A DNA stretch of 64,000 nucleotides, from the NCBI GenBank assembly GCA_016870215.1, contig VGCD01000007.1, positions 1 through 64,000 on the forward strand, written 5' to 3'. The notes beneath the pieces are model-generated. The model was given only the letters and a program-made list of their open reading frames with translations, searched no databases and had not been told where the DNA came from. The DNA comes from Actinomycetota bacterium. GTDB lineage: Bacteria > Actinomycetota > Acidimicrobiia > Acidimicrobiales > Ilumatobacteraceae. Position numbers and translations under genes: made by a program. Of this stretch, positions 45,015-50,066 are shown piece after piece; positions within the stretch are counted from its first letter, which is position 1, and the number at the start of each line of letters is the position of its first letter.

Positions 45015-46124
45015 ATGCACACTCCTTTAACTTCTCCTTGTCGTTTGCTGCGTTCGACTATCGCACTGTCATGCGCACTGATTCTTGTCTCGTGTTCGTC
45101 ATCGGGAGGCTCGACTCCAACGTCAGAGTCGTCGGCCGCAAGTGGGTCTGGCCAGGCAGCGACTCATGAGAAGGCAAAAGCTGAATGCATGGGTGGTGCC
45201 GAAGTCACTGGGGATGCATTGAACATAGCGACGACGGTGGCGCCCATCACCAACCTGGTGGCACTTGTCGTCGGAGACTCTCCGGCAACTGTGACCGGCA
45301 TTGTCCCTGAGGGAACCAATTCACACACATTTGAGCCGCCACCGAGTGTTGCAGCGACGCTGTCGAAGGCCGACGTTGTGTTCATCAACGGTCTCGTGCT
45401 CGAAGAGCCCACGAGAGATCTCGCTGTCGCCAATATGAAAGACGGAGCAGTGGTGTGCGAATTGGGAACCGCAGTGCTTCCCGAAAGTGACTACGTGTAC
45501 GACTTTTCCTTTCCTAAGGAAGGTGGCAAGCCGAATCCCCATTTGTGGACTGACCCGCCGCTTGCCCGAGAGTATGTGAGCCTCATTAGGGACGTGCTTG
45601 TGTCGCGGGACCCGGCGAACGAGGCGACATACGCAGCGAATCATGACAAGGTCGTGGCAATGATTGACCGACTCGACGCAGCGATGGTGGAAGCAACTGC
45701 AACATTGCCTGCCGAGCAACGGAAGCTGCTGACCTATCACGATGCGTATGCCTATTTTGCCAAGACATACGACTGGCAAGTGGTGGGGGCGATCCAGCCG
45801 TCATCATTCGAGGAGCCGACGCCAAAAGACATCGCCGAGCTCATCGACCAAGTTCGAGCAGAGAATGTGAAGGCAGTGTTTGGAAGTGAAGTATTTCCCT
45901 CGCCCGTACTTGAACAGATTGGTAGGGAGGCCGGAGTTGCCTATGTTGATGTCTTGCGTGACGACGATCTGCCCGGTGAGCCTGGTGCCGCCGACCATTC
46001 ATGGGCCGGGCTCATGCGTTTCGATTACGTCACCATGGTCGAAGCATTGGGCGGCGATGCCAGCGTCTTGAAGGGCGTTGATATCACGGTGGACTCGGCC
46101 GATAAGGCGTACTACCCACAGTGA
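45015..46124 (+). CDS. Zinc/manganese-type ABC transporter substrate-binding lipoprotein
   Basis: A 369-residue cluster-9 solute-binding protein. An export signal with lipobox LVSC and a Ser/Gly linker precede the metal-binding lobes. Ligand histidines are visible in GTNSHTFEP, PNPHLWTDP and LTYHDAYAYF, with an acidic ligand probably in the DDDLPGEPG region. Three His plus one acidic residue fit Zn2+ or Mn2+; there is no His-rich loop. It is first in a three-gene importer operon, overlapping the ATPase gene by 4 bases. Confidence 0.93.
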   Translation: MHTPLTSPCRLLRSTIALSCALILVSCSSSGGSTPTSESSAASGSGQAATHEKAKAECMGGAEVTGDALNIATTVAPITNLVALVVGDSPATVTGIVPEGTNSHTFEPPPSVAATLSKADVVFINGLVLEEPTRDLAVANMKDGAVVCELGTAVLPESDYVYDFSFPKEGGKPNPHLWTDPPLAREYVSLIRDVLVSRDPANEATYAANHDKVVAMIDRLDAAMVEATATLPAEQRKLLTYHDAYAYFAKTYDWQVVGAIQPSSFEEPTPKDIAELIDQVRAENVKAVFGSEVFPSPVLEQIGREAGVAYVDVLRDDDLPGEPGAADHSWAGLMRFDYVTMVEALGGDASVLKGVDITVDSADKAYYPQ

Positions 46125-46918
46125 ACTCTCTCGCGATTCCCCAAGCACTCATTGAGTGTCATGAACTGACGTGCGCGTACGACGGTGCAGTCGCAGTTGA
46201 TGACGTGTCGATGGCAGTGCGTCGCGGGGACTTCGTCGGAGTTGTGGGTCCATCTGGTTCGGGCAAGACCACGCTGCTCAAAGCAATTCTCGGGTCGGTT
46301 CAACCAGCGAGCGGTCATGTGCACAGGCTGCAGAACCTGAAGATGGCCTATGTCCCCCAAGTGGAGAGTGTTGACTGGAACTTTCCGGTGACCGTTCTCG
46401 AGACCGTAGTGATGACGCGCACTCGCAACGGATGGTGGTCGCGTATGGCGAAGGAAGAACGTGATCAGGCTGAACGCGTCTTGCATCGACTTGGTCTTGT
46501 CGATGTTTCTGCACGTCACATTCGCGAACTCTCCGGCGGCCAGCAGCAGCGCGTGTTCATCGCCAGGGCACTTTTCCATCGGCCCGAGTTGCTCGTTCTG
46601 GATGAACCCACATCTGGTGTCGATGTGCGTACGCGACACGAAGTATTGCACCTGTTGGCCGACCTGCATGACGAGGGCCTATCAATCGTGCTCACCACCC
46701 ACGACCTCAACGGGTTGGCGGCCCATCTTCCACGAGTGGTGTGTATCAATCGTCGCATCGTGGCCGATGGTTCACCACGTGACGTGCTCACGCCCGTTGT
46801 TCTCGAGCAAACATACGGTGCTGCCATGGAAGTTCTCATCCACGGTGGAATGCCGGTGGTCTTAGAGAGTGGTGCCGACCACGTTGCACGACGACTGTCC
46901 AAGTTGACGACTTCCTGA
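46121..46918 (+). CDS. Metal ABC transporter ATP-binding protein
   Basis: A 265-residue ABC ATPase: Walker A GPSGSGKTT, Q-loop VPQVES, signature LSGGQQQR, Walker B LLVLDEP, and switch His in TTHD. The VDWNFPVTVLE segment is typical of the zinc/manganese importer ATPases. The GTG start overlaps the binding-protein stop by 4 bases (GTGA). It powers uptake through the permease encoded next. Confidence 0.94.
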   Translation: MNSLAIPQALIECHELTCAYDGAVAVDDVSMAVRRGDFVGVVGPSGSGKTTLLKAILGSVQPASGHVHRLQNLKMAYVPQVESVDWNFPVTVLETVVMTRTRNGWWSRMAKEERDQAERVLHRLGLVDVSARHIRELSGGQQQRVFIARALFHRPELLVLDEPTSGVDVRTRHEVLHLLADLHDEGLSIVLTTHDLNGLAAHLPRVVCINRRIVADGSPRDVLTPVVLEQTYGAAMEVLIHGGMPVVLESGADHVARRLSKLTTS

Positions 46919-46935
46919 CGCGAGATCACGTAGTC

Positions 46936-47781
46936 ATGCTCGCGACACTTTTCGAACCATTCGGCTATTCGTTCTTCAACAACGGATTGGCGGTTGCGAC
47001 CCTTGCCGGCGCGCTGTGCGGCCTGCTGGGTGTGTTCGTGGTGTTGCGAGGTATGAGCTATATCGGGCACGGACTGTCACATGCAGTATTTGGCGGAGCG
47101 GCGGCATCCGCAGTTGTCGGTATCAATTACTTCGTCGGAGCCGGAATCTGGGCAGTGGTGTCAGGTGTGCTCATCGGTCGCATTGCGCGGCGGCGCATCA
47201 TCGGTGCCGATGCCGCAATTGGCGTGGTGACCACAGCTTCATTTGCTATTGGTCTCGCACTTCTCAATCGATATGGACAGGCAAAAAAGAGCATCGAAGC
47301 TGTGTTGTTCGGCTCTGTCCTCGGAGTGGAACGGGCTGACATCTGGGCAGTGTCAATTGTTGCGTTACTTGTCGCAGTTTTCATTGTCGCGTTTTATCGT
47401 CGATTGTTGTTTGCCACATTTGATCCTGATGTTGCACAGGTGACGGGCGTGAGAGTTGCTTGGGTGGAAGCGATGGTCATGATGATGCTGTCACTCACAA
47501 TTCTCGTGACCATGCGCGTGATCGGGACACTGCTCATCTCTGCGTTGCTGGTCATTCCCGCAGCAACATCACGAATGTTGACAAACTCATTCGCACGCAT
47601 GTTGTGGATTTCGCCGGTGCTCGGCGCGATCGCAGGTTTTGTCGGCATGAACGCGGCGTACCATCTCGACACCTCCGCCAGTGCAACCGTGATTCTCGCA
47701 GCTGCCATCGGTTTTGTGGCGGTGTATGCCGCAACCGGCATACGTGGACGTGTCCGCGTGGCACACGTTCACCACATCTAA
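46936..47781 (+). CDS. Metal ABC transporter permease (ZnuB/MntB family)
   Basis: A 281-residue ABC-3 family permease with about eight hydrophobic segments: GLLGVFVVLRGMSYIGHGLSHAV near the N-terminus, DPDVAQVTGV and TLLISALLVIPAATSRML in the second half, as in ZnuB. The C-terminus ends in histidines (HVHHI), which might help metal release inside the cell. Its stop is 2 bp from the convergent gene's stop, inside the palindrome CTAACGTTAG. Confidence 0.93.
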   Translation: MLATLFEPFGYSFFNNGLAVATLAGALCGLLGVFVVLRGMSYIGHGLSHAVFGGAAASAVVGINYFVGAGIWAVVSGVLIGRIARRRIIGADAAIGVVTTASFAIGLALLNRYGQAKKSIEAVLFGSVLGVERADIWAVSIVALLVAVFIVAFYRRLLFATFDPDVAQVTGVRVAWVEAMVMMMLSLTILVTMRVIGTLLISALLVIPAATSRMLTNSFARMLWISPVLGAIAGFVGMNAAYHLDTSASATVILAAAIGFVAVYAATGIRGRVRVAHVHHI

Positions 47782-47783
47782 CG

Positions 47784-49061
47784 TTAGTCTCGCAATTGCC
47801 ATTCCACGCCAGACGGCGTGTCTCGAACTTCGACTCCGATGTCGGCAAAAGTGTCACGAATGGTGTCGGAAAGATCAAAGCGCTTCTCGGCGCGAACCGT
47901 TGCGCGAAGTGACAGCAAGGCTTCGACAAACGGAGCGACCACCTCACGGGGGTCGCGCGCACCACTGACCGCAAGGTCTCCGAGGCTGCTGATCATTGCC
48001 CGAAGTGAGGCCCTTGCACGGTCGGCATCTTCGCTTTGCAGAGAATCGGCAGACCATTCATGAATCGCTTGTTCCAGCTCGAGTGCCGCGCGTGCTGCTG
48101 CGATTGGGTCACGTGCGTCAAGTGCCTCGTTGAATCGCTCGGTACAAGTAGTGGCCACTTGACCAAGAGAAGTCACTGTGTTGTTTGTTATCGACCGCTG
48201 ATTGTCACCCGTGGCCACTGCCTTGGCGGACATCTTTCCTGAAGTGTGTTGAGTAGTCGGGTTGCGCAGCACATCGAGTGAGAACACGTCACCAGTTTCA
48301 AAGATTCGTGATGAGCCTTTGTGCCGTACGGTCACTGTTCCGTTTCCGGCAACTGTGCATGAGTCTGCGTCGAGGTCGATGACGACTGCAGTGTGCTCGT
48401 CGACACCTAGCACGAAAGTGTCTTCATCAAGCATCGATTCGAGCAACGTGAGTCGGGTGTCTCCGAGATAGCAGTACCTCGTGTCGTGATTCCCGCCTTC
48501 AGCGTTGTCATAGTGAGGTATGACAACGGCATTAACCCCGATGTCGCCGAGCACGTTCAGGCCATCAACGAGTCGGACATCTTCTCCGACCTTGTATATC
48601 TCGTACACGGGGACCGTGTACTTGCCGAGCGTCAGCGCAGCTGCTGATGCGAAGGTGACGATGCCACCGTTTTGCACCTTCGAGCGCAGCACATCAGCAA
48701 ATCTGCTGCCGGCCCATTGCCGCAGTGCGTACGTGGGCGAGCCAGGCCCGGCAAACAGATACGTGGCCGAGTCGACAAGGCGAAGACCTCGCTCAACCGA
48801 TACGGGGTCTGCCGCAATGTGTGTGTCGTGAAGTCGCACGAGCCCTGCAACCTTTGTATCAATGTTGACACTGACTTTGAAGTAGTCGATGGCCCGGGAA
48901 GCCAGCTCGGGTGCGTTTTCCTGAAAACCAAATGGAGTGTCGACGATGACCGCATCGACCGGTGCCGGCAATGTTGCGACGAGTTTTCGGTGAGTGCTGA
49001 CCATTGTTGGTGCGGTCTCGCCAGACCCCATGATGGTGAGAATGCGCGGCAATGTGCTCAT
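47784..49061 (-). CDS. Peptidase-S51/cyanophycinase-like domain fused to a CysS/YqeB-type C-terminal domain
   Basis: A 425-residue two-part protein. Residues 1-265 resemble the S51 peptidase/class-I glutamine-amidotransferase-like fold: LTIMGSGE, FAGPGSPTY, TFASAAAL with the candidate nucleophile Ser139, a PHYDN...H segment and GVDEHTAVVID as in cyanophycinases. Residues about 300-425 are helical and end in a sequence closely resembling the tail of cysteinyl-tRNA synthetase (LLSLRATVRAEKRFDLSDTI, then IGVEVRDTPSG.EW). No synthetase core is present. The activity is unknown. It overlaps the next gene by 4 bases (ATGA order hydrolase to fusion). Confidence 0.8.
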   Translation of the reverse strand: MSTLPRILTIMGSGETAPTMVSTHRKLVATLPAPVDAVIVDTPFGFQENAPELASRAIDYFKVSVNIDTKVAGLVRLHDTHIAADPVSVERGLRLVDSATYLFAGPGSPTYALRQWAGSRFADVLRSKVQNGGIVTFASAAALTLGKYTVPVYEIYKVGEDVRLVDGLNVLGDIGVNAVVIPHYDNAEGGNHDTRYCYLGDTRLTLLESMLDEDTFVLGVDEHTAVVIDLDADSCTVAGNGTVTVRHKGSSRIFETGDVFSLDVLRNPTTQHTSGKMSAKAVATGDNQRSITNNTVTSLGQVATTCTERFNEALDARDPIAAARAALELEQAIHEWSADSLQSEDADRARASLRAMISSLGDLAVSGARDPREVVAPFVEALLSLRATVRAEKRFDLSDTIRDTFADIGVEVRDTPSGVEWQLRD

Positions 49062-49924
49062 GCGAAGAAACCTTCTGTGATGGCGTCGTGGATGACATCG
49101 GCGAATCGCCGTGGGTGTTGGGCGTGAAGATCATGGTCGGCACCAATGAATGGCACAACTTTGCAGCGACGAATGTGTTGTTCGGCGACATCAAGTGCGC
49201 TGCGTTTCCGATTCGAGAAATCTGAGTTGTCAATTGCGGGGGTGAACATCACGGGCACAGAGATCTGCGAAAACTGATCATGAGGGCTGTGTTCCCAGAG
49301 GCCGCGAAGAATCTTCATATGACGCTCACGTGTCAACCACGGACGCACCGTTCCGTCCGGTAGGTGTTCCATGTTTGCCAACGTCGCATCAACGGCGTCG
49401 TCAGACCAATCGGGGTGTGTTGCTTTGATGGCTGCCCACAGACGGTCATAACGCGTGCCAGCGATGTGTGGCGGAGCCAATTGCTGCGCGCAGTCATCCC
49501 AGTGAGGGAATGCAGACTTCAAATCGATGGTGCCGCCATCAACGGCGCACACGCCCCGCACTCTGTATGGATGGCGCGCTGCCAAGTGAATGACGACATT
49601 GCCTCCCCATGACTGACCAACCACAAGAGGTCGCGTCCACGATGCGTCACGTTGCGCGAGGATGTCGAGCAATGTTGCGAGGTCATCAGTAACGGTGTCC
49701 ATGTCGTAGCCGTCATCGGGTTTGTCGCTGGTGCCGTGACCGCGCTGGTCAAGTGCAATGACACCGTGGCCGTGCGTCGTGAGGTGTCGAGCGGAGCCGT
49801 CCCACAGCTGGGCGTTCGATGCCAAGCCATGAACCATGACTATGGGAATTCCGTGCTCAGAGGGGGAACCCCACACTCGACATGAGAGTTGAAGATCATC
49901 AGCGAGTCGGACTCGTTCGATCAT
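49058..49924 (-). CDS. Alpha/beta hydrolase
   Basis: A 288-residue alpha/beta hydrolase: VHGLASNAQLWD, DQRGHGTSDKP, nucleophile elbow GQSWGG and late His in GADHDLHAQHP. The Trp after the nucleophile recalls hydrolases of the haloperoxidase/dehalogenase side, but Ser as nucleophile points to an esterase or C-C hydrolase. The start is set at ATG 49924 where homology begins; a GTG at 49984 would add 20 residues of poor composition. It precedes and is coupled to the S51-CysS fusion gene, which suggests a joint task. Confidence 0.87.
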   Translation of the reverse strand: MIERVRLADDLQLSCRVWGSPSEHGIPIVMVHGLASNAQLWDGSARHLTTHGHGVIALDQRGHGTSDKPDDGYDMDTVTDDLATLLDILAQRDASWTRPLVVGQSWGGNVVIHLAARHPYRVRGVCAVDGGTIDLKSAFPHWDDCAQQLAPPHIAGTRYDRLWAAIKATHPDWSDDAVDATLANMEHLPDGTVRPWLTRERHMKILRGLWEHSPHDQFSQISVPVMFTPAIDNSDFSNRKRSALDVAEQHIRRCKVVPFIGADHDLHAQHPRRFADVIHDAITEGFFA

Positions 49925-50066
49925 CGGCGACGATGTGTCCTTGTCCGGCGAGTGATGCACCTTCGCATTGTCGCAGGGTGGCACATGAAAACCACCGACG
50001 AGCGAGCACGTGTTCAGGGAAAGACTGTCAAGAACCTAGGGTGAAGCGACCAATATGGAGGTGCCC

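Follow-up and report, generated by a model that had tools for sequence, protein, structure and literature searches.

A single gene in the 64,000-nucleotide stretch of actinobacterial DNA analyzed here (the window) encodes an S51-like serine hydrolase fused to the C-terminal tail of cysteinyl-tRNA synthetase (CysRS, or CysS), which is a new domain architecture. The fusion has orthologues throughout its class and in further actinobacterial families, its candidate catalytic residues are invariant, and it forms a two-gene unit with an alpha/beta hydrolase. Furthermore, the tail retains its anticodon-contact residues beyond what its fold needs. We give about an even chance to the reading that the protein is a serine hydrolase tethered to tRNA-Cys and that it and its partner share a substrate that is either linked to tRNA-Cys or gated by it. 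No publication on this architecture was found in our literature search. Two papers on synthetases, examined for CysRS paralogues, mention MshC and a CysRS without the anticodon domain, and the S51 fusion is absent from both.

Two known folds in one protein

The fusion gene begins with ATG on the minus strand, and the same frame on the plus strand is interrupted by stops (Table 1). An earlier note, made from the sequence alone, had described the product as an S51-like domain joined to the CysS tail, with the class I synthetase core absent. When the window protein was searched as a single sequence, positions 338 to 464 of the CysS profile TIGR00435 matched fusion residues 298 to 422 (E 5.5e-6); the match therefore begins only at position 338 of 466, in agreement with a missing core. 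The CysS_C family (PF23493) was matched at E 3.6e-4 and 21 bits, 2 bits short of its cut-off of 23, and Peptidase_S51 (PF03575) at E 3e-3 and 17.7 bits against a cut-off of 23.9. Because these single-sequence scores are weak, a family alignment of 67 sequences (A2) was built. At E<=0.01, PF23493 matches 55 of the 67 members (best 2.6e-9) and Peptidase_S51 matches 27 (best 4.8e-6). Compared with structures, the 67-member profile matched CysRS entries with E values from 2.3e-10 to 1.3e-4, and it matched 6nqc, an S51 structure, at 4.4e-7.

Table 1. Coordinates of the fusion gene, its parts, and the adjoining hydrolase gene in the window
Feature	Position	Strand	Basis
Whole fusion gene (425 aa), S51-like serine hydrolase joined to the helical and anticodon-binding tail of CysRS	47784..49061	minus	Profiles, AlphaFold2, Foldseek
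S51/GATase-1-like hydrolase domain, residues about 1-266	48264..49061	minus	Foldseek (6nqc, 1fy2, 3en0, 7uqw), conservation
Flexible linker, residues about 267-296	48174..48263	minus	pLDDT <50 over 273-295; length varies among orthologues
CysRS-tail helical-bundle part, residues about 297-378	47928..48173	minus	TIGR00435 match; model helices
CysS_C anticodon-binding module, residues 379-423	47793..47927	minus	PF23493; alignment to E. coli CysRS
Upstream gene for the alpha/beta hydrolase (308 aa)	49058..49984	minus	ATGA overlap with fusion start

The AlphaFold2 model computed from the same alignment has a mean pLDDT of 86.1 and a pTM of 0.69, with residues 273 to 295 of the linker disordered. 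A Foldseek search of the PDB ranked S51 structures first (6nqc, E 2.7e-14, target TM 0.81, followed by dipeptidase E and cyanophycinase), and after these CysRS bound to tRNA-Cys (1u0b_B; probability 1.00, E 5e-3, 130 columns, 24% identity). The predicted structure is two known folds joined, rather than the single unrelated fold that would have spoken against the earlier note, and both halves named there were recovered independently by profile and by structure. A pseudogene or chance ORF is ruled out by full-length orthologues with 40-84% identity.

The hallmarks of S51 enzymes include a GxSAG nucleophile motif and a GG loop (PMC11078827). In the aligned fusion members, GxSAG is replaced by FASAA (FSSAA in some) and the GG loop by GPGSP, and the domain thus belongs to a separate S51-like clade instead of being a classical S51 member. 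Ser139, previously picked out as the candidate nucleophile, is invariant in 119 of 119 diverse members, as are Glu154, His183, Asp221, and Glu222, and the model places it at the junction of a strand and a helix. On alignment to 6nqc, Ser139, His183, and the GxDE motif fall on their counterparts in that S51 structure. Candidates for a full triad are therefore present in every member. Because the third triad member varies among S51 enzymes (PMC11078827), we leave the acid as Glu154 or Asp221/Glu222. The domain likely has hydrolase activity. To describe this half as a cyanophycinase goes too far: the TIGR02069 score of 22.2 bits is about 100 bits short of the equivalog cut-off of 126.6, and with the nucleophile motif also changed, a cyanophycinase role was rejected.

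A conserved pair with an alpha/beta hydrolase

The phyletic survey suggested by the earlier note found strong fusion matches in 63 of the 100 listed relatives, and full-length orthologues are widespread across the class and occur in other actinobacterial families. Many of the source genomes are metagenome-assembled; repeated synteny and the existence of single-contig fusion genomes (e.g., G470, G568) argue against an assembly artefact. A shorter fusion is kept in genomes of about 1 Mb and 31% GC (L187, L188), possibly Actinomarinales. Cyanophycin degradation was inferred for Actinomarinales from a “cyanophycinase” (PMC7771536). No protein reached the cyanophycinase cut-off in 14 genomes, 10 of them from this roughly 1-Mb, 31% GC group. 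The fusion is a warning against taking S51-like genes in these organisms as evidence for cyanophycin degradation.

The adjoining alpha/beta hydrolase has conserved Ser125, His284, and Asp149. Its homologue lies directly upstream of the fusion in 83 of the 104 loci with enough sequence, mostly with an overlap of 4-13 bases (fusion starts were estimated from alignments). When the 100 relatives were scored for the hydrolase at E<=1e-40 (count from two tables), it occurred in 54 of the 63 genomes with the fusion versus none of the 37 genomes without it. For some of the nine fusion genomes that lack the hydrolase, the fusion is at a contig end or the genome is incomplete. Two genomes, G068 and G090, carry the hydrolase on a contig other than that of the fusion. 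The translational coupling noted earlier corresponds to the ATGA overlap in the window, and the proposed two-gene unit is backed by both this synteny and the co-occurrence survey.

Other neighbors, named from reading the sequences, differ by lineage and include metal ABC transporter, LLM-type, beta-lactamase-like, Gfo/Idh/MocA-like oxidoreductase, and ClpS/DUF2017-like genes. The neighborhood survey yielded no pathway clue beyond the alpha/beta hydrolase. In several lineages (L149, L153, L156, L144) two genes for Gfo/Idh/MocA-like oxidoreductases immediately precede the hydrolase and fusion genes, perhaps in one operon with them. In the window, a convergent znuABC/mntABC-like metal ABC transporter (45015-47781), whose binding protein, ATPase, and permease were named by reading translations, ends 2 bases from the fusion gene end. 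A phage or defence function was rejected, as the fusion has no PHROGs match and neither gene of the pair has a PADLOC match.

The tail and its likely tRNA

The base G34 is the first anticodon base of tRNA-Cys. In the E. coli CysRS complex, it is contacted by Arg427 and Asp436 through hydrogen bonds, by Trp432 through stacking, and by Arg423 through a water network (PMC12684709). An alignment of the fusion with E. coli CysRS and 30 CysRS proteins from the same order equates R386, R390, F395, and D399 of the fusion with R423, R427, W432, and D436, and likewise R402, D414, and W421 with R439, D451, and W458. Among 119 fusion members, R386 and D399 are kept in all, R390 in 118 (Lys in the remaining one), and position 395 is always aromatic (F, Y, or W); D414 and W421 are also kept in all 119. 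The anticodon residues are conserved at least as strictly in the fusions as in CysRS of the same order. Other tail positions conserved in CysRS (D349, T352, P353, N367, D431, and E450) are lost in the fusions, so the retention of tail residues is selective. The model has helices at 299-315, 319-337, and 344-366. Lineages with 31% GC and genomes of about 1 Mb lack a large portion of this helical part, yet they retain the anticodon residues.

The CysS_C module is also found on other actinobacterial proteins. YqeB-like proteins, which combine bPH_10 with CysS_C, occur in large actinobacterial genomes (L219-L227). All four that were aligned keep the equivalent of R386, have Leu in place of R390, and lack the aromatic residue at 395 and D399. 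A CysS_C domain can therefore exist without these residues, and their conservation in the fusions is not just for folding. A second group consists of glycosyltransferase family 2 proteins that have CysS_C at the N terminus. Of 198 genomes sampled from the phylum, 27 encode this family, and the complete aligned modules keep R, R, aromatic, and D. These proteins come from other actinobacterial families (L229-L255, e.g., L229 in G396 contig 66, 24115-25056). As judged from the alignments, the module appears to be mobile, with its anticodon-reading residues kept in two enzyme contexts. The residue comparison, which draws on one tRNA complex and four aligned YqeB-like sequences, indicates that the fusion probably binds tRNA-Cys. 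The retained G34-contact residues favor the RNA-directed function raised in the earlier note.

The thiol side of that proposal, which pointed to the mycothiol paralogue MshC, fared differently. A complete CysS scoring 406 bits is encoded elsewhere in the source genome, on a different contig, so the fusion tail does not compensate for a missing synthetase. The MshC-like match of this genome spans CysS positions 1-317 only, and those of relatives extend to about position 320 only (about 375 in a few); a complete CysS and a tail-less MshC-like gene are both present in nearly all sampled relatives. MshC therefore cannot be where the fusion tail belongs. In the neighborhood survey, no thiol gene recurred next to the fusion, and the MshC-like genes are not linked to it, which led us to set aside a mycothiol connection. 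Several relatives (G062, G071, G072, G083, G084, and G086) carry, besides CysS and the MshC-like gene, a third CysS-like match in which the C-terminal tail is again missing.

Possible roles and relation to known systems

In a tRNA-Cys-tethered hydrolase, the C-terminal CysRS module would dock on the anticodon arm of tRNA-Cys and read G34, and the S51-like domain on its flexible linker would use Ser139, His183, and the acid to cleave an ester or amide. The likely target would be a group carried on or delivered by tRNA-Cys (aminoacyl, modified aminoacyl, or peptidyl), which would be removed or transferred, with the alpha/beta hydrolase contributing either to that step or to the one after it. We put somewhat less than an even chance on the substrate being attached to tRNA-Cys as opposed to merely gated by it. 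About 75 A lie between a tRNA's acceptor end and its anticodon, so the 3' end would have to be reached by way of the linker or through another contact with the tRNA. Furthermore, CysRS selects cysteine without editing, and a classical mischarging substrate is therefore not obvious. The change from GxSAG to FASAA means that catalysis could be altered.

Relatives in family S51 are peptidases that release Asp-X or beta-Asp-Arg (PMC11078827, PMC10206079). This activity, together with the same residue-level evidence for tRNA binding (R386, R390, F395, and D399) and the flexible linker in the model, would also fit a protein for which tRNA-Cys is a sensor. The charged or uncharged form of the tRNA would gate an S51 dipeptidase or amidase, cysteine or translation status would thereby control peptide or amide breakdown, and the hydrolase would handle the product. 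We regard such a sensor as rather unlikely, given that the neighborhood survey found no recurrent peptide-transport or amino-acid genes adjoining the pair and that the S51 motifs near the nucleophile are altered. Slightly less probable again is an ordinary S51-like peptidase whose tail has lost tRNA binding and serves as a module for structure or protein interaction in general. The presence of CysS_C on the unrelated YqeB-like PH and glycosyltransferase family 2 proteins and the loss of the helical part in some lineages are in its favor, but YqeB-like proteins tolerate the loss of R390, aromatic 395, and D399, which the fusions keep in 118-119 of 119 members.

Aminoacyl-tRNAs can feed metabolism, as they do with cyclodipeptide synthases, which are ping-pong enzymes, and with peptide aminoacyl-tRNA ligases. 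On these established precedents, a tRNA-Cys module on an enzyme with a Ser nucleophile in a two-enzyme operon might be a biosynthetic aminoacyl transferase. Ser139 would take an acyl group, Cys or a different one, from Cys-tRNA-Cys and pass it by a ping-pong route to an acceptor to give a cysteine-containing metabolite processed by the hydrolase. This is improbable because no biosynthetic cluster surrounds the pair in the neighborhood survey and because the fusion is kept in streamlined genomes of about 1 Mb, which are less likely to maintain dispensable metabolites.

Returning to the tethered hydrolase, we tentatively propose a new class of tRNA-Cys-guided serine hydrolases or acyl transferases with the S51 fold that might recruit (aminoacyl-)tRNA-Cys by means of an anticodon module transplanted from a synthetase and act on the attached group with a hydrolase partner; taken with the glycosyltransferase fusions, CysS_C may be a mobile tRNA-Cys tether in Actinomycetota. 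The fusion, usually accompanied by the hydrolase gene, is carried by many actinobacteria that are uncultured or streamlined, which suggests an enzyme, so far undescribed, that is guided or gated by tRNA. Should the protein bind tRNA-Cys, an anticodon reader for one particular tRNA would be at work in an enzyme that is neither a synthetase nor a translation factor, and even bacteria with genomes of about 1 Mb would have kept it. What leaves or joins tRNA-Cys, and why these bacteria need the fusion, become testable questions.

Several known systems resemble the fusion in part. With peptidase family S51 (dipeptidase E and cyanophycinase; 6nqc, 1fy2, 3en0), it shares the fold, the position of the nucleophilic Ser, the His and acid candidates, and the GxDE motif, here GVDEHTA. 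It differs from that family in having FASAA, GPGSP, and a C-terminal CysRS module, and the window protein scores below the Pfam S51 cut-off and far below that for cyanophycinase. The CysRS C-terminal domain (PF23493, 1u0b) has the same helices and beta hairpin, and the fusion keeps equivalents of R423, R427, W432, D436, R439, D451, and G455. Unlike CysRS, which is encoded complete and separately in the genome, the fusion has no catalytic core and hence no aminoacylation, and it has lost other tail residues that CysRS conserves. MshC, the Cys ligase of mycothiol synthesis, is likewise a CysRS-derived actinobacterial protein, but it keeps the synthetase core and is without the tail, the reverse of the fusion. 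YqeB-like proteins also carry CysS_C on a protein that is not a synthetase; however, their partner is a PH-like domain with hydrophobic segments and no enzyme, and three of the four G34-contact residues are gone. The glycosyltransferase family 2 proteins, by comparison, join CysS_C with R, R, aromatic, and D to an unrelated enzyme, although that enzyme is a different one, the module is N-terminal, and the helical part is absent.
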